A stretch of 64,000 nucleotides of DNA, from the NCBI GenBank assembly GCA_014058405.1, contig CP047423.1:2418001-2482000 (forward strand). The letters run 5' to 3'. Numbering within the stretch: position 1 is the stretch's first letter; the number at the start of each line of letters is the position of its first letter. This document shows, in pieces, positions 32,782 through 40,466 of this stretch. The notes under the pieces were generated by a model. It did no database searches, was not told where the DNA came from, and was given only the letters and a program-made list of their open reading frames with translations. A program made the translations under genes and the position numbers. This stretch comes from Candidatus Nitrospira kreftii. Lineage in GTDB: Bacteria > Nitrospirota > Nitrospiria > Nitrospirales > Nitrospiraceae.

Positions 32782-33028
32782 CGGAAAAGACCTTTCTTGA
32801 TGAAGACATGAGCAGGAGAGAACATCGGAGACACTCTACATACCACAGAATGAGGTGACGCCCAAATCGTCGAGCACGCGAGCCAGAATAACTTTCCGAT
32901 TCCATATCACACGTGCCCCTACTCTGCAGCGCTTCTCCCTCGACAGACCTCCGGATCCTATGCTAGCTTACCCTCTCGTTTTTCTAAGGTCACTCCCTCA
33001 TTCACGCGAAAACTCGCAGGTTCAGAAT

Positions 33029-34447
33029 ATGTTCAAGAAGATCTTAGTGGCTAATCGTGGTGAAATTGCCATGCGGATTATTCGCGCCTGCCGCGAGTTG
33101 AATATCGCCACCGCCGCGATCTATTCCGAAGCGGATTCAACTGGAATCTACGTGAAAAAAGCGGACGAATCCTACATGGTCGGGCCCGGACCGGTGAAGG
33201 GATTCCTTGATAGCAAGCAGATCGTGGATCTCGCCAAACGAATCGGCGCTGATGCCATCCATCCAGGATACGGATTTCTCTCTGAAAATGCGGAGTTCGC
33301 CGAGCTCTGTCAGACCTCAGATATCACATTCATCGGCCCTTCGACTCATGCCATTACCCTCATGGGTAGCAAGGTGAAAGCACGAAAGCTCGCCGAGTCA
33401 GCCGGCGTTCCGGTTGTGCCCGGCACCGATGGAGCTATTACCAACGTCAAGGACGCCCTGGCCTTCGCAAAAAAAACGGGATACCCCGTCATGATCAAGG
33501 CGAGCGCCGGAGGCGGCGGTCGTGGCCTTCGAGTAGTCCGGTCCAATGAGGAACTGCGCGAGAATATGGAGGTTGCGGCGCGAGAAGCGCAGGCGTCTTT
33601 TGGAGACGGCAGCGTCTTCATCGAAAAATATGTCGAGCGCCCGCATCACATTGAGTTCCAAATTCTGGGAGATCGTCATGGCAACATCATTCATCTCGGA
33701 GAACGAGACTGTTCGATCCAGCGACGACACCAGAAGCTGATTGAGATTGCGCCGTCGTTGGTGCTCACGCAGGAGCTCCGGGAAGAGATGGGCAACGCCG
33801 CAATCACCATCGCCCGAGCAGTGAATTACGACAACGCGGGAACCGTGGAGTTTCTCCTCGATCAAGAAGGTAAGTTCTACTTCATCGAAATGAATCCGCG
33901 CCTCCAAGTCGAGCACACGGTAACGGAGCAGATTACCGCCATCGATATCGTACGGAATCAAATCAAGATCGCAGCAGGCCTGCCGCTCAGCATTCAGCAG
34001 AAAGACGTCATCCTACAAGGCCATGCAATCCAATGCCGGATCAATGCGGAAGACCCGAAAAACAATTTCCTGCCCTGCACGGGCACCGTCACGGCGTACC
34101 TCTCTCCCGGTGGAATCGGCGTTCGCATCGACGGAGCGGTGTACAAGGATTACACCGTGCCACCCTACTATGACGCCCTACTGGCTAAGTTGACGGTCCG
34201 GGGCCGCACGTGGGAAGAAACCGTCAGCCGGATGAGACGCTCGCTTGAAGAGTATGTGCTCCGTGGAGTGAAAACGACGATTCCCTTCATGGAGGCGATC
34301 ATGCAGGAGCCTGATTTTATCGCCGGACGCTTTGACACATCGTATCTGGACACCCACCCTGAATTGTATTCGTACCATGAGTTTGAGCAGCCCGAAGATC
34401 TTGTTCTCGCGCTGTCTGCCGCAATCGCTGCTTACGAAGGACTCTAG
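33029..34447 (+). CDS. pycA: Pyruvate carboxylase subunit A (biotin carboxylase)
   Basis: The 472-residue subunit has the biotin carboxylase fold. It starts MFKKILVANRGEIAMRIIRA, has the ATP-grasp loop KASAGGGGRGLRVV, the metal-binding ENAEFAELC and FLLDQEGKFYFIEMNPRLQV (Glu/Asn pair), and the carboxylase motif RLQVEHTVTE. It carboxylates biotin with bicarbonate and ATP. The directly downstream gene carries the carboxyltransferase and biotin domains, so the pair is the two-subunit pyruvate carboxylase and not acetyl-CoA carboxylase. The start at 33029 gives the family N terminus; frames continue 58 residues upstream but are unlike it. Confidence 0.92.
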   Translation: MFKKILVANRGEIAMRIIRACRELNIATAAIYSEADSTGIYVKKADESYMVGPGPVKGFLDSKQIVDLAKRIGADAIHPGYGFLSENAEFAELCQTSDITFIGPSTHAITLMGSKVKARKLAESAGVPVVPGTDGAITNVKDALAFAKKTGYPVMIKASAGGGGRGLRVVRSNEELRENMEVAAREAQASFGDGSVFIEKYVERPHHIEFQILGDRHGNIIHLGERDCSIQRRHQKLIEIAPSLVLTQELREEMGNAAITIARAVNYDNAGTVEFLLDQEGKFYFIEMNPRLQVEHTVTEQITAIDIVRNQIKIAAGLPLSIQQKDVILQGHAIQCRINAEDPKNNFLPCTGTVTAYLSPGGIGVRIDGAVYKDYTVPPYYDALLAKLTVRGRTWEETVSRMRRSLEEYVLRGVKTTIPFMEAIMQEPDFIAGRFDTSYLDTHPELYSYHEFEQPEDLVLALSAAIAAYEGL

Positions 34448-34493
34448 TAATCCGGACAACGCCGCCGAGACCTCACACCATACACGAGACGTT

Positions 34494-36449
34494 ATGGCAA
34501 AAAAACGACCAGCAGCAAGAAAACAGGCGAAAAAGACCGCATCGTATGTTCCGACGGTGAAGACATCAAAAAAAATCACATCACCCCCCAGTGAGTTCAC
34601 GATCCAACCGGCCGTCGGTAAGCCGGTCCTGATTACCGATGTCGCGCTGCGAGACGGACATCAATCCTTGCTGGCTACCCGCATGCGCACCGAGGATATG
34701 CTGCCGATCGCGCAGAAGCTCGATGCTGTCGGTTATTGGTCGCTGGAAGTGTGGGGTGGAGCGACTTTCGATACCTGCCTGCGATTCTTGAAGGAAGATC
34801 CTTGGGAACGGCTCCGAGCGTTACGAGCCGCGATGCCCAATACCAAACTCCAGATGTTGTTGCGGGGACAAAATCTTGTCGGTTATCGACATTACGCCGA
34901 CGATGTGGTGGAACGCTTCATCGAACGTTCGGCTACGAACGGGATCGATGTCTTCCGCATCTTCGATGCCCTGAACGACGTGAGAAATCTCGATCGGGCC
35001 GTGAGCGAAGTCAAGGCCTGCGGCAAACACGCGGAAGCGGCCATCTCCTATACAGTGAGCCCGGTGCATAGCATCGACCGTTTCGTGGATCTTGCCAGGA
35101 AGTTGGAAGATCTGGGGACGGATACCATTTGCATCAAAGATATGGCTGGGCTCTTGGCTCCGCTCGATGCGTATCGCCTGGTGCGTCGCCTGAAAGCGGC
35201 GGTCAAAGTTCCGCTCCATCTTCACTCCCACTACACCTCGGGAATGGCCTCCATGTCTTCGTTGATGGCGATTCTTGGAGGGCTCGACATGCTGGATACC
35301 TCGATTTCGCCGCTCGCTGGAGGAACATCTCACCCGGCGACAGAAACGTTGGTCGCCGCACTCCAGAACACGCCCTATGACACGGGACTGGAACTCGCAT
35401 CCTTCCAGCCGATCACCGAACACTTTCGAACTGTTCGTCGCAAGTACCGTCAGTTCGAAAGCGATTTTACCGGTGTCGATGCCGAAATCCTCATGTCGCA
35501 GATTCCTGGTGGTATGTTGTCGAACCTGGCGGCTCAATTAGCCGAACAGAACGCTCTGGACCGGATGAAGGAGGTCCTTGACGAAGTGCCGCGTGTACGA
35601 AAAGAGATGGGGTATCCTCCGCTCGTCACCCCGACCAGCCAGATCGTCGGAACCCAGGCCACCCTCAACGTGTTGACCGGAGAACGGTACAAAGTCATCA
35701 CAACTGAAACGAAGAACTATTTCTTGGGACTCTACGGCCGTGCGCCGGGGCAAGTCGATCTCGATGTGATGGCACGCGCGACCGGCGACGAAACCCCGAT
35801 CAAGACCAGACCCGCCGATCGCCTGGAGCCTGAATTGGACGACGCTAAAAAAGAACTACCCGAGTCGGCCCAAAGCATCGAGGACCAGCTGTCGTTCGTG
35901 CTCTTCCCCGCCATCGCGCGTGACTTTTTCGAGGCTCGTGAAAAAGGCGATCTGACCCCGGAACCGCTCGAATTCGGCTCGGCAAAAGGGCCTACGACCG
36001 CTCATGAACTGCATCTGGCCCCCGTGGAATTTAATGTGACGGTGCATGGCGAGACGTACCACGTGAAAGTCTCGGGTTCCGGTCGAAAGATCGACGGTCG
36101 CAAACCCTACTATATCCGGGTCAACGATAAGCTGGAGGAAGTCTCGCTCGAACCGATCCAGGAAGTACTGGCCGGTGTTCCCGAATCCCAGGAGACCCAT
36201 TCTGGAGGAAAACCCAAACGACCCAAACCTTCAAAACCGGGTGACGTCGCCCCGCCCATGCCGGGCCGCGTCGTAAAGATCCTCGCGGCAATCGGTGATC
36301 AAGTACAAGCCGGAGACCCACTGTTAATCATCGAAGCGATGAAGATGGAAAGCCAGGTCCCCGCACCCATCGATGGAAAAGTCGCGACGATCCTGGCGAG
36401 CGAGGGAGATAATGTGAAGACGGATGAAACGGTCATCCAACTTGAGTAG
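34494..36449 (+). CDS. pycB: Pyruvate carboxylase subunit B (carboxyltransferase and biotin carrier)
   Basis: The 651-residue subunit has a lysine-rich N terminus, a DRE-TIM carboxyltransferase barrel (VALRDGHQSLLATRM, with the metal-binding region GGTSHPATETL), a linker domain (about 350-500) and a biotinyl domain at the C terminus with the biotin Lys in IEAMKMESQVPAP. With PycA it makes oxaloacetate from pyruvate and bicarbonate. In Nitrospira this is an entry to the reductive TCA cycle (known). It could instead be an oxaloacetate decarboxylase alpha chain, but no beta or gamma membrane subunits are adjacent. A 47-bp gap separates it from pycA. Confidence 0.92.
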   Translation: MAKKRPAARKQAKKTASYVPTVKTSKKITSPPSEFTIQPAVGKPVLITDVALRDGHQSLLATRMRTEDMLPIAQKLDAVGYWSLEVWGGATFDTCLRFLKEDPWERLRALRAAMPNTKLQMLLRGQNLVGYRHYADDVVERFIERSATNGIDVFRIFDALNDVRNLDRAVSEVKACGKHAEAAISYTVSPVHSIDRFVDLARKLEDLGTDTICIKDMAGLLAPLDAYRLVRRLKAAVKVPLHLHSHYTSGMASMSSLMAILGGLDMLDTSISPLAGGTSHPATETLVAALQNTPYDTGLELASFQPITEHFRTVRRKYRQFESDFTGVDAEILMSQIPGGMLSNLAAQLAEQNALDRMKEVLDEVPRVRKEMGYPPLVTPTSQIVGTQATLNVLTGERYKVITTETKNYFLGLYGRAPGQVDLDVMARATGDETPIKTRPADRLEPELDDAKKELPESAQSIEDQLSFVLFPAIARDFFEAREKGDLTPEPLEFGSAKGPTTAHELHLAPVEFNVTVHGETYHVKVSGSGRKIDGRKPYYIRVNDKLEEVSLEPIQEVLAGVPESQETHSGGKPKRPKPSKPGDVAPPMPGRVVKILAAIGDQVQAGDPLLIIEAMKMESQVPAPIDGKVATILASEGDNVKTDETVIQLE

Positions 36450-37413
36450 TCCGAGAGTCGAGCATCTCGCTTCCCCCTACCGACCATGGCCCCTTGTGCC
36501 GCTCGTCCTCTGCCTCTTATCATCCCTGATGACCGCTTGTGCCCCACCCTCGCAGATGCCTCCTTATTTTGACGCGTTCCATCGCCTCCCGATCAAGACG
36601 GCGGTGGTCCATGAACAGCGTATAGCGTACCTTGATGTCGGCGCCGGCCCACCCGTCATCCTGATCCACGGCTTTGGCGGATCCATGTGGCAATGGGAAC
36701 ATCAGCAACACGCCTTATCGCAACAGTTCCGGGTGCTGACACCGGACCTACCCGGTTCTGGGCTTTCCGACAAGCCAGACATCGATTACCGTACGGACCA
36801 GATGCTGGACTTTTGCATCGGATTTATGAATGCCCTTCAAATTGACAAGGCGACGCTGGTCGGTAATTCCATGGGTGCGGGATTAGCCAGTGGCATGGCA
36901 ATCGCCCATCCCACGCGCGTCGACAAACTGGTGCTCATCAGCGGATTGCCGTCGCAGGTCATGGCCAAGCTCAGTAGCCGGTCATTCAGGAAAGCCTTGG
37001 AGACGCGAGCCCCAGTCTGGCTGATTTCGTTGGGGAATTGGTTGTTCGGTGGAATGGCGACCGAATCCGTGCTCAAGGAAATCGTTCACGACCATACCTT
37101 GCTCACACCGGCCGTCATCGACCGGTCAAACCGCAATCGTCGACGCCCCGGCATCATCAAGCCCATCATGGCCGTGCGAAATGCCCTCCCCTCCTGGGAA
37201 ACCGATTTTGCCCCACGGCTCAGCACCATCGCACACCCAACCCTGATCATCTGGGGTGAGTACGACCGGGTGTTCCCCATTCCCGTGGGTGAAGAACTTC
37301 ACCATAGGATCCGTGGATCACAGTTTGTCAGAATCTCCGATGCCGGTCATATGCCGCAATGGGAACGTCCGGAGCTGGTGAACCGATCGCTGATCGCGTA
37401 TATTCAATCGTAA
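36424..37413 (+). CDS. Alpha/beta hydrolase lipoprotein
   Basis: The 329-residue protein has a signal/lipobox region (LVLCLLSSLMTACAPP, Cys near residue 39) and an alpha/beta hydrolase domain: ILIHGFGGSMWQWEH (oxyanion HGF), nucleophile Ser in VGNSMGAGLA, Asp in IIWGEYDRVFPI and His in SDAGHMPQWERPE. It would act on small ester or amide substrates at the outer face of the membrane; the substrate is unknown. The gene overlaps pycB by 26 bp, so the two are co-translated, though no functional link is known. Confidence 0.85.
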   Translation: MKRSSNLSSPRVEHLASPYRPWPLVPLVLCLLSSLMTACAPPSQMPPYFDAFHRLPIKTAVVHEQRIAYLDVGAGPPVILIHGFGGSMWQWEHQQHALSQQFRVLTPDLPGSGLSDKPDIDYRTDQMLDFCIGFMNALQIDKATLVGNSMGAGLASGMAIAHPTRVDKLVLISGLPSQVMAKLSSRSFRKALETRAPVWLISLGNWLFGGMATESVLKEIVHDHTLLTPAVIDRSNRNRRRPGIIKPIMAVRNALPSWETDFAPRLSTIAHPTLIIWGEYDRVFPIPVGEELHHRIRGSQFVRISDAGHMPQWERPELVNRSLIAYIQS

Positions 37414-37475
37414 CTTCGAGCGGCATTACCATAAACGATGACCGATCACTCATTATCTTCAGAAAGGAGCATACA

Positions 37476-38141
37476 ATGCAGACACGATATTATGGATTTA
37501 TCGGCACAGCCCTGTGTCTTTCCCTTGGCCTCATGGGATGCCAGACAACGGCAGGATCATCCGGACAGGCCTTCTCCTACAAGAACATGCCGGTGGCCGA
37601 CGGAAGTGCGACCGCTGGAGAAGGGAACAAGGTCCTATTCAAAGGCAATCCTCTACCGTTGAGCGGCAATGGGGTGAAGGTTGGGGATATCCTACGGGAC
37701 GTCAAGGTTACACAGAACGATTTGACGCTCGTCAATATTGTGGAAACGCAAGGCGCGGGAAAAGTGCGCATCATCAATATTGTTCCCTCCCTTGATACAC
37801 CGGTCTGTGAACAACAGACACACCTGCTCAGCGAGAAAAATAAAGGCCTTGATAAAATGGTCGAACTTATCACAGTCAGCGTCGATACCCCATTTGCGCA
37901 GAAACGTTTTGCTCAGGAAGCCAAGATTGCCAATGTGACATTCTTGTCCGATTATCGCGGCGGCGACTTCGGGAAAACCCATGGTCTCTTTTTGGAAGGT
38001 CCGCACATTTTGACCAGAGCCGTCATGGTCGTCGATAAGATGAATACCATTCGCCATCTTCAAATCACCCCTGAGCTCACTCAACTGCCGGATATGGAAG
38101 AGGCTTTCCAGATCGCCCGCCGTTTGGTGACGGAGAGTTAA
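37476..38141 (+). CDS. tpx: Thiol peroxidase (Tpx family) lipoprotein, lacking the resolving Cys
   Basis: The 221-residue protein has a signal peptide with Cys22 in LGLMGC, which fits a lipoprotein, followed by a Tpx domain. The peroxidatic Cys111 stands in SLDTPVCEQQTHL with its Thr108, and Arg181 is kept. The second Cys, used in E. coli Tpx to form the disulphide (Cys95, in the motif PFAQxRFC), is Ala146 here (TPFAQKRFAQ). Cys22 is the lipid site, so the mature protein has a single redox Cys and should need an outside thiol to be reduced. A Shine-Dalgarno AAAGGAGC precedes the ATG. Confidence 0.88.
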   Translation: MQTRYYGFIGTALCLSLGLMGCQTTAGSSGQAFSYKNMPVADGSATAGEGNKVLFKGNPLPLSGNGVKVGDILRDVKVTQNDLTLVNIVETQGAGKVRIINIVPSLDTPVCEQQTHLLSEKNKGLDKMVELITVSVDTPFAQKRFAQEAKIANVTFLSDYRGGDFGKTHGLFLEGPHILTRAVMVVDKMNTIRHLQITPELTQLPDMEEAFQIARRLVTES

Positions 38142-38227
38142 CCTGACACGATCTTGGAACCGAGGTGACGGGCGCGCCTCTCACGTATGCCAGGCACAGC
38201 CGTCACCTCAGCATGCGTGAAGCGCTG

Positions 38228-39631
38228 ATGGCTCGTTACGATCTACTCGTCATCGGTACAGGACCAGCCGGCCAAAAGGCTGCCGTTCAAGCGGCAAAGC
38301 TCGGTAAGAAGGTCGGCATCATCGAACGGAAGATGGTCCTCGGTGGCGTCTGCATCAACACCGGCACCATTCCCAGCAAGTCTCTCCGTGAAGCGGTGCT
38401 TTACCTCTCCGGATTCCGCCAGCGCAGCATCTATGGCGGCGCCTACCGACTGAAAAAGACGATCACCATCGAAGACCTGGCCTTCCGAGCCAACCACGTC
38501 ATCAAGCACGAGATCCAGATCGTCCAAGATCAAATGGCGCGCAATCGGATCGACATGTTTTTTGGGACGGCCAGTTTTCTCGATCCCCATCGTCTCCGCA
38601 TTCAAACGACCCGTGGCGCGCTCGAACTCACGGCCGACTTCATGGTGATCGCCGTCGGTACGGAGCCGGCTCGACCGGCCCATATTCCTTTCGACAACCA
38701 CACCATCATCGATACCGACGGACTGCTGACGCTTAAACGGATTCCCAAGTCCCTTGTCATCGTCGGAGGCGGTGTCATCGGGACCGAATATGCCTCCATG
38801 CTCGCTGCCTTGGGAGCTCCGGTCACCCTCATCGACAAACGACCGCGGTTACTGGAGTTTGTCGATGCGGAGATCATCGATGCGCTGCAGCGACAAATGA
38901 AGGAGTTAGGCGTCACGCTGTATCATGAGGAAGAAGTCCTTGCGATCAAGCGAAATTGGGACAATTCCATCCACGTCTCCTTGCGAAACAACCGGCCGCT
39001 TCGAACATCGACACTCATGTATGCGATCGGGCGTGTCGGGGCCACCCGCACCCTCAACCTCGATGCGATCGGACTGAAACCGGATAGCCGAGGACGGTTG
39101 ACCGTTAATGAGCACCTCCAAACCGCTATCCCCCATATCTATGCAGCCGGTGATATCATTGGATTTCCGGCGTTGGCTTCAACCTCGATGCAGCAGGGAC
39201 GCCATGCAGCCAGCCATGCGTTCGGTCATTTCGATCGTATCGATACCTCGCTGTTGCCATATGGAATCTATGCGATTCCAGAAATTTCCATGGTGGGACG
39301 AAACGAGGAGGAACTGAAGCACGCTGAGATTCCCTATGCCGTCGGCATCGCCCGGTACAAGGAGATCGCGCGAGGGCAACTGATCGGCGACGAAACCGGC
39401 ATGCTCAAACTCCTGTTTCATCGAGACACCAAACATCTTCTGGGAGTTCATGCAATCGGTGAAGGGGCGACGGAGTTGATCCACATCGGCCAGGCAGTCA
39501 TGGCCTTTCACGGAAAGATCGATTATTTCATCGATACGGTCTTCAACTATCCGACCCTGGCCGAATGTTATAAGGTGGCGGCACTGGACGGCATAAATCG
39601 GTTGCCGAGACCCTGGATTCCGTACCTCTAA
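38228..39631 (+). CDS. sthA: Soluble pyridine nucleotide transhydrogenase
   Basis: The 467-residue flavoprotein has the disulphide-reductase fold: FAD motif LLVIGTGPAGQKAA, GGVCINTGTIPSK with one Cys at 42 and Thr in place of the second redox Cys (as in SthA and unlike lipoamide dehydrogenase), NAD motif SLVIVGGGVIGTEYAS and IYAAGDIIGFP. The C-terminal VFNYPTLAECYKVAALDG is like SthA. It moves hydride between NADH and NADPH. It could be mistaken for lipoamide dehydrogenase, but the missing second Cys argues against that. The start is uncertain (Met at 38213 is five residues further up). Confidence 0.85.
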   Translation: MARYDLLVIGTGPAGQKAAVQAAKLGKKVGIIERKMVLGGVCINTGTIPSKSLREAVLYLSGFRQRSIYGGAYRLKKTITIEDLAFRANHVIKHEIQIVQDQMARNRIDMFFGTASFLDPHRLRIQTTRGALELTADFMVIAVGTEPARPAHIPFDNHTIIDTDGLLTLKRIPKSLVIVGGGVIGTEYASMLAALGAPVTLIDKRPRLLEFVDAEIIDALQRQMKELGVTLYHEEEVLAIKRNWDNSIHVSLRNNRPLRTSTLMYAIGRVGATRTLNLDAIGLKPDSRGRLTVNEHLQTAIPHIYAAGDIIGFPALASTSMQQGRHAASHAFGHFDRIDTSLLPYGIYAIPEISMVGRNEEELKHAEIPYAVGIARYKEIARGQLIGDETGMLKLLFHRDTKHLLGVHAIGEGATELIHIGQAVMAFHGKIDYFIDTVFNYPTLAECYKVAALDGINRLPRPWIPYL

Positions 39632-39639
39632 GGTTCGTG

Positions 39640-39775
39640 GTGCGTCGTTCGTGAAGCGTCTCTCGTCCGGACTCGATGTGTCTAGTTTCAGGTTTCACGT
39701 TGCTCATTTCGGTCCACGACAATTTTGAAGACAAACTTGAAACACTCGCAGGTACAAGGCTGCATGTTTCATAAG
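39640..39775. repeat. Intergenic mosaic repeat between sthA and tenA
   Basis: This region contains GTGAAGCGT (39651-39659), GTTTCAGGTTTCACG, then AACTTGAAAC and a final GTTTCAT. These are the same short words, mostly inverted, as in the hemE-hemH gap at 22640-22795. No coding capacity is visible. Confidence 0.45.
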
Positions 39776-39797
39776 ATCTGACGATAAGGAGTGCCTC

Positions 39798-40466
39798 ATG
39801 TCGTTTTCAAACCATCTTAGAAAACTCACTGTTTCAATCTGGGACGCTCAGTTAAGCCATCCCTTTGTTACCGCGCTTGGCGACGGAACGCTGCCCGAAC
39901 AGAAATTCCAGTACTACATTCTGCAAGATGCACGATTCCTGGGAGATCTCTCTCGTGTCTTTGCCGCCGGTGCGCTGAGAGCTCCGGACTCCGACAGTGC
40001 GCTTCGCTTCGCCAAACTCGCCGAGGAAACCATTACGGTTGAACGCGGTCTGCATGAGAACTATGGCAAACGCTGGAATCTCACACCGAAGCAGATGACC
40101 TCGGTACCCATGGCGCCCACTAATTATGCATACACGAGGCACATGCTGGCCGTCGCTGCTGCGGGAACAGCCGCAGAGGTCACAGTGGTGGCCCTCCCCT
40201 GTGCATGGGTCTACTGCGTTGTGGGACGGCACCTGCTACGAAAAGGCCCACCGCCCAAGAATCATCCCTACCGCGACTGGCTGATGCTCTATGCCTCGCC
40301 GGAGTTTGCCGAGGTGCAAGTGTGGATGCGGAAGAAGGTCGATCAGTGGTCCAAAACCGCCGGAAAAGAGGAGCTGCGCCGGATGGAAGAATCGTTCATT
40401 ATCAGCTCACGGTACGAATGGATGTTCTGGGAGATGGCGTGGAACGAAGAACAGTGGCCGGTCTAG
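39798..40466 (+). CDS. tenA: TenA-family thiaminase II / aminopyrimidine aminohydrolase
   Basis: The 222-residue helical protein keeps the family residues at the same numbers as B. subtilis TenA: Asp44 (YILQDARFL), Tyr112 (TNYAYTRH) and the catalytic Cys135 (VALPCAWVY). TenA salvages the thiamine pyrimidine by hydrolysing aminopyrimidines. A TenA-like oxidase role (as for PqqC relatives) is unlikely because the catalytic Cys is present. A clear AAGGAG precedes the ATG. It stands alone with no thi genes nearby and no visible TPP riboswitch upstream. Confidence 0.88.
   Translation: MSFSNHLRKLTVSIWDAQLSHPFVTALGDGTLPEQKFQYYILQDARFLGDLSRVFAAGALRAPDSDSALRFAKLAEETITVERGLHENYGKRWNLTPKQMTSVPMAPTNYAYTRHMLAVAAAGTAAEVTVVALPCAWVYCVVGRHLLRKGPPPKNHPYRDWLMLYASPEFAEVQVWMRKKVDQWSKTAGKEELRRMEESFIISSRYEWMFWEMAWNEEQWPV

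Follow-up and report, generated by a model that had tools for sequence, protein, structure and literature searches.

Thiol peroxidases (Tpx) are described by a two-cysteine mechanism based on a resolving cysteine (C_R). A published account of the family gives two signatures for them, PS(I/L/V)DTx(V/T/I)C_P around the peroxidatic cysteine (C_P) and AxxR(F/W)C, whose Cys is the C_R and lies in helix alpha-3, and describes the catalytic Arg as nearly invariant and the Leu three places ahead of it as very well conserved (PMC5302317). Peroxiredoxins with one cysteine depend on an external donor; in a one-Cys BCP, the sulfenate was reduced by thioredoxin or by glutathione/glutaredoxin (PMC8945050). 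In the cell envelope, PprX of Caulobacter, together with ScsB and TlpA, is described as a peroxiredoxin that receives its electrons from a TlpA-like protein fed through the membrane (PMC5403849). Among the titles and abstract openings found in the literature, none concerned a Tpx clade that is exported or naturally devoid of C_R. Here, we describe such a clade, every sampled member of which lacks C_R, starting from a lipoprotein encoded in the genome of Candidatus Nitrospira kreftii.

A predicted Tpx lipoprotein with alanine in place of the resolving cysteine

The window, i.e., the whole 64,000-nucleotide stretch of DNA analysed here, carries a tpx gene (Table 1) whose product reaches 136.4 bits with the NCBIfam thiol peroxidase model NF001808, passing the curated cut-off of 123, and also matches the Pfam families Redoxin and AhpC-TSA. 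Given the AAAGGAG motif ahead of the annotated ATG at 37476, the longer frame opening at ATG 37359 is an unlikely start.

The original prediction, made from the letters alone, had assigned Cys111 as C_P, placed Ala146 where C_R would stand and named Cys22 as the sole other cysteine of the mature protein, and each of these assignments held. The motif with Cys111, PSLDTPVC, is intact in the translation and conforms to the Tpx lineage motif, with Cys at the C_P position in all rows of the phylum alignment. Ala146 occupies the C_R place both in the translation (FAQKRFA) and in alignments to solved Tpx structures, in which the Cys of PFAQKRWC in the S. aureus and S. pneumoniae proteins lies over Ala146 of PFAQKRFA. 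The product contains Cys at residues 14, 22 and 111 only, and since Cys14 falls in the signal peptide, the mature protein retains just the lipid-site Cys22 and Cys111. The two-Cys signature is hence missing, the protein reading AQKRFA at that place, and it is not classed as a canonical atypical two-Cys Tpx; instead, it has the single peroxidatic cysteine, without C_R, that defines one-Cys peroxiredoxins. The catalytic Arg is present as Arg181 (R160 in mature numbering) and is invariant in the aligned mature sequences, and the residue three places before it is Ile178 (HILTR) rather than the expected Leu, a conservative change. The N terminus has the signal peptide and the conserved lipobox (LGLMGC, with Cys22) of a bacterial lipoprotein, and lipidation is predicted. 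Taken together, the product of tpx is almost certainly exported and devoid of C_R, as judged from its residues.

A structure model of the mature protein (mean pLDDT 93.4, with residues 1-8 disordered) gave Tpx as the top PDB matches in both Foldseek and VIA-align 2 (3p7x_B, Z 26.9, rmsd 1.1, 163 aligned residues) and was closer to reduced Tpx (2xpd, 24.9) than to oxidised forms (2xpe, 19.9; 3hvs, 20.6).

Table 1. Positions of the tpx gene, its parts, its neighbours and the second exported Tpx of the same genome
Feature	Position	Strand	Basis
tpx, 221 aa, thiol peroxidase predicted to be an exported lipoprotein; no resolving Cys	37476..38141	+	translation, family models, structure model
Ribosome-binding site AAAGGAG	37463..37469	+	6 bases 5' of the tpx ATG; read in the sequence
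Signal peptide of tpx, residues 1-21, ending in lipobox L-M-G ahead of Cys22	37476..37538	+	sequence; cleavage predicted
Cys22, predicted lipid attachment site	37539..37541	+	invariant in 29 aligned mature sequences
Cys111, peroxidatic Cys (C_P)	37806..37808	+	Cys in 117/117 rows of the phylum alignment
Ala146, occupying the resolving-Cys (C_R) position	37911..37913	+	alignments to solved Tpx; column counts
abh, alpha/beta hydrolase with lipobox-like N terminus, upstream	36424..37413	+	Pfam; adjoins tpx in 73/74 f1 loci
sth, Sth-type NAD(P)+ transhydrogenase, downstream	38165..39631	+	NF003585, 643 bits; 70/74 f1 loci
pycB, carboxylase subunit, pyruvate-carboxylase-like (PYC_OADA, biotin domain), upstream	34332..36449	+	Pfam; 71/74 f1 loci
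L002, second exported Tpx, PQLNTPVC	1342-1953; G000:C1:4013113-4013556	+	NF001808, 83 bits, under cut-off

Conservation in the family and phylum of the window

Within the family to which the window belongs (f1; f2 and f5 denote families of the same order and of the same class, respectively), matches to tpx were found at E 1e-8 in 108 of the 117 genomes, including 88 of the 91 good ones, and at E 1e-10 they were found in 117 of the 245 genomes of the phylum. About 70 distinct f1 cores were read, rather than every one of the 108 matching genomes, and all 70 have Ala or Ser at the C_R place. In a 117-row phylum alignment, in which two rows (L117 and L118) are PrxQ-like, the C_R column holds Ala in 86 rows, Cys in 23, Ser in 3 and another residue or a gap in 5. 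The lipobox column holds Cys in 84 rows, 83 of them lipoproteins and one (L093) apparently a chance match, which speaks against the possibility, raised with the original prediction, of an uncut signal and a cytoplasmic protein. Separately, an in-frame TGA occurs in four peroxiredoxin-like matches (L117, L118, L369 and L370), which may be selenoproteins or reflect frame damage.

Among 29 mature sequences (the window protein, 21 more from f1, 5 from f2 and 2 from f5), Cys1, P83, T87, C90 and R160 (numbered from the mature N terminus) do not vary, and Cys never occurs in the C_R column of the same alignment. The dN/dS ratio of tpx against nine relatives ranged from 0.039 to 0.111, with dS saturated (≥1.9) in 6 of the 9 comparisons and no value for a tenth pair; selection on tpx is, by this sequence measure, strong.

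The original prediction had proposed aligning Nitrospirota Tpx to see whether the Ala is general. It is so for the exported copies, which have Ala and sometimes Ser, but not for the phylum at large, because 23 of the 25 distinct non-exported copies outside the family of the window have Cys. Two f5 genomes (G239 and G250) each encode both kinds: the lipoproteins L088 and L090 lack C_R, and the Tpx proteins L089 and L091, which are not exported, have it. The genome of the window encodes a second exported Tpx, L002, which has neither lipobox nor C_R, is 46% identical over residues 68-218 and has relatives in the order of the window and in Nitrospinota, as placed in the tree. A search of the whole genome for a C_R-bearing Tpx returned no such protein, the matches being tpx, L002 and the PrxQ-like L003 only.

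Export and absence of the resolving cysteine across groups

To the phylum of the window, sampled with its own protein, we added three groups sampled with the family model, namely 60 Nitrospinota, 60 Burkholderiales and 59 genomes of the phylum to which a Desulfuromonadales locus belongs. An export signal was called in 132 distinct Tpx cores, all of which lacked C_R, and none of the 92 cores with C_R was exported; 3 further cores were neither exported nor carried C_R. Counted as exported without C_R, non-exported with C_R and non-exported without C_R, the distinct cores were 46, 2 and 1 in Nitrospinota, 3, 38 and 0 in Burkholderiales (plus 4 without C_P), 3, 29 and 0 in the phylum of the Desulfuromonadales locus, 70, 0 and 0 in f1, and 10, 23 and 2 in the rest of the phylum of the window. 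Every one of the 154 distinct exported cores from all loci has a single Cys from residue 68 of the window protein onward; Ala occupies the C_R place in 149 of them and Ser in 5. A second thiol within the Tpx fold was considered as a candidate and is ruled out by these 154 cores.

Export signals were assigned with a simple rule on hydrophobicity, and 4 of the 132 calls were set by hand (L021, L036, L056 and L168, as exported); L274 was likewise set as not exported, and L154 and L218 were left undecided. The counts, 281 distinct cores in all, exclude 19 open reading frames scoring below 80 bits to a local Tpx profile, pieces shorter than 110 aa (L256 and L098) and repeat fetches. Of the 47 matching genomes of the phylum outside the class of the window, the counts cover 25, and those for the phylum of the Desulfuromonadales locus leave aside three weak places (G474:C24, G473:C6 and G461:C47).

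Two other kinds of protein were encountered during this sampling. In four Burkholderiales genomes, a Tpx-like copy (L320, L331, L333 and L336) adjoins a normal two-Cys tpx, carries Gly in place of C_P (PSLDAAIG or PSVDAEIG) and lacks C_R; judging from these substitutions, it is probably a non-peroxidase paralogue. Six proteins (L403, L405, L406, L408, L409 and L410) represent another kind of peroxiredoxin, whose N termini resemble signal peptides and whose motif is FVPAA(W/F)TPVCSxQW; they scored 57-69 bits to the local Tpx profile and fell outside the Tpx clade.

Scanning genome contigs with the codon pattern DLPFAxxRFA returned at least 118 loci; because the pattern demands Ala at the C_R place, no frequencies are derived from it. 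Among the matches listed, there were 58 distinct Tpx cores, 44 of them exported, 12 without a signal and 2 undecided. The exported ones came from Nitrospinota (18), Pseudomonadota (15), Thermodesulfobacteriota (7), Myxococcota (2) and Nitrospirota (1), with the 44th, L216, from Nitrospinaceae, and 15 of the 34 genomes with an exported Tpx among these matches additionally encode a C_R-bearing Tpx that is not exported. The 12 distinct non-exported cores with Ala for C_R among the matches listed are scattered over taxa such as Ignatzschineria, Wohlfahrtiimonas and Dietzia, and loci of this type include L184, L193, L194, L201, L203, L206, L233 and L240. In proteins predicted to stay in the cytoplasm, C_R is lost as well, without export.

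A single cross-phylum clade of exported Tpx

In a tree of 177 rows, filtered to below 80% identity, built with the C_R column removed and without L216 and L294 in the input, the state of C_R changed 9 times, whereas export changed once, on a split with SH-aLRT support of 99. Another tree, of 82 rows with 6 outgroup peroxiredoxins, recovered the exported clade with a bootstrap of 70 and SH-aLRT of 99, nested inside non-exported Tpx; support is weak for its sister (L092) and at several of the nodes leading to it. From this nested position, C_R was probably lost on or near the branch leading to the exported clade. Its subgroups comprise the f1 and f2 lipoproteins, Nitrospinota, Pseudomonadota, Desulfuromonadales with f5, and a set from the order of the window and Nitrospinota that includes L002. 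By their predicted export and their placement in these trees, the exported Tpx form one clade that crosses phyla and lacks C_R, be it through paralogy or through transfer between phyla.

Since export arose once on the tree, its association with the loss of C_R is a single event. Repeated convergent coupling of the two is not supported, as a sign test on independent pairs contained no pair differing in export. The majority of the C_R changes on the 177-row tree came without export.

Gene neighbourhood and candidate reductants

Over window positions 32855-40466, the order pycA-pycB-abh-tpx-sth(-tenA), in which pycA is also pyruvate-carboxylase-like, is widely kept in f1, and the products look unrelated. 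The gap between tpx and sth is 24 bases when measured to the GTG start of sth, the true start of which may be later. The 74 f1 lipoprotein loci compared do not count the window itself, include four that are second fetches of one place, and have short flanks, within which tenA is present in 28 of the 74. Two of the four loci without sth end at that point, and the other two (L025 and L027) have tenA next instead. No thiol reductase adjoins tpx in the f1 loci, and none is evident near tpx in 42 loci from outside, the neighbours of which were judged by eye. Thus, no conserved neighbour is an obvious envelope donor, and we infer the donor step from the rest of the genome.

A CcdA-type gene (L120) there adjoins a gene for a TlpA/ResA-like protein with a WCGPC motif (L125). 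Further thioredoxin-fold proteins with apparent signals are L123, L126 and L127, and the DsbA family has seven matches, two of them in one frame. A search with PF02955 for glutathione synthetase gave no match in this genome. Of the two types of reductant suggested with the original prediction, a periplasmic thioredoxin and a glutathione-type compound, the former hence has TlpA-type and CcdA candidates, and the latter found no backing in glutathione synthetase. These observations make a TlpA protein fed by CcdA the leading guess for the donor.

Proposed mechanism and alternatives

We propose that Tpx, lipidated at Cys22, would face the periplasm, where Cys111 would reduce H2O2 or organic hydroperoxides and thereby be converted to a sulfenic acid. 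With no second cysteine to close a disulfide, this sulfenate would be reduced by an external thiol donor, most plausibly a TlpA/ResA-type protein supplied with electrons across the membrane by CcdA. The lone cysteine of the fold and the export signal support, as the best reading, the envelope-facing one-Cys enzyme that had been predicted, and the product very probably works as a one-Cys peroxidase. That some external donor resets it is likely. The specific choice of a CcdA-fed TlpA-type protein is more tentative, with a chance somewhat short of even, and the donor could instead be another protein or a small thiol. A point that counts against this best reading is that periplasmic H2O2 in E. coli, according to a review, is probably at the outside level (PMC8115020), which makes an envelope scavenger puzzling.

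Alternatively, resolution might occur between subunits, the C_P of one subunit forming an intermolecular disulfide with the C_P' of another, to be split subsequently by a reductase. By its title, PDB entry 3hvx is the E. coli Tpx C95S, devoid of C_R, with an intermolecular disulfide bond, and it matches our model with Z 22.8; furthermore, Yersinia Tpx is described as a dimer in solution (PMC3288085). The original prediction had named a resolving Cys supplied elsewhere in a homodimer as a finding that would contradict it. The fold contains no other Cys in the window protein or in any of the exported cores, so that a C_P-C_P' disulfide is the only such route left. The nearness of the model to reduced rather than oxidised Tpx weighs against it, although it says little on oligomers, and we consider resolution between subunits improbable.

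An equally small probability attaches to a role as a peroxide sensor, thiol oxidase or chaperone, in which the sulfenate would serve as a signal or pass oxidation to partner proteins, rather than mainly scavenging peroxide. A lone peroxidatic Cys in an envelope with DsbA-family proteins could indeed pass oxidation on, and no donor is seen adjoining tpx; however, the catalytic residues are fully kept, neither a regulator nor an obvious client is linked to the gene, and nothing positive speaks for such a role. Finally, an artefact, be it a wrong start, an uncut signal, a decaying gene or a sequencing error at the C_R codon, has no point in its favour and is extremely improbable, a wrong start or decay being ruled out by the ribosome-binding site, the invariant residues and the low dN/dS, and the rest countered by the conserved lipobox, the presence of matches in most f1 genomes and the Ala or Ser shared by the f1 cores.

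Placed in a wider frame, the externally reduced one-Cys peroxidase may belong to an old branch of Tpx dedicated to the envelope, dominant in Nitrospirota and Nitrospinota and scattered elsewhere, that dropped C_R on leaving the cytoplasm because the DsbA machinery would lock or misuse a disulfide-forming enzyme, with the sulfenate reset by CcdA-fed TlpA, and that would be a main envelope peroxide defence of nitrite oxidisers that reportedly have no catalase or superoxide dismutase. As a whole, this scenario is speculative and we regard it as rather unlikely to hold in every part. Published reports describe Nitrospina gracilis (PMC3578206) and Ca. N. defluvii (PMC8115632) as lacking both enzymes, and the latter source describes other Nitrospira, e.g., N. 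marina, as having them, so that the need for an envelope peroxide defence would differ by species.

Comparison with known systems

With the canonical two-Cys Tpx assigned to NF001808, such as those of S. aureus (3p7x), E. coli and Yersinia, the window protein shares the fold, the PSxDTxxC motif, the catalytic Arg and the position in the tree, but it differs from them in lacking C_R, in carrying a signal peptide with a lipobox and in its longer N-terminal segment. The NF001808 scores were 129-137 bits in four exported proteins, as opposed to 251 in a canonical one; the model plainly names the four scanned exported proteins of the lipoprotein and Nitrospinota types 'thiol peroxidase', and two proteins of the second exported type fall under its cut-off.

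One-Cys peroxiredoxins, such as AhpE of M. tuberculosis, Prx6 and BCP/PrxQ, share with the window protein a single peroxidatic Cys and an external donor (a proposed one in the window protein), and AhpE matches the model with Z 20-21. However, they are other subfamilies, whereas the lineage of the window has its own motif and position in the tree. The Tpx of M. tuberculosis has C_R and is cytosolic. According to the title of Trujillo et al. 2006, it acts as a one-Cys peroxiredoxin, a mode of action shared with that proposed here, but it does not represent a naturally C_R-less exported clade. By analogy, PprX of Caulobacter would employ the same mechanism as that proposed for the window Tpx, and since none of the control genomes with a match to NF001808 is that of Caulobacter vibrioides, PprX probably belongs to another peroxiredoxin lineage.

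The exported clade makes it testable why C_R is dispensable outside the cytoplasm and which partners reduce sulfenates in that setting. By descent, as its motifs and tree position indicate, the window protein is a Tpx, and by mechanism, as its predicted residues imply, it is not a canonical two-Cys Tpx.
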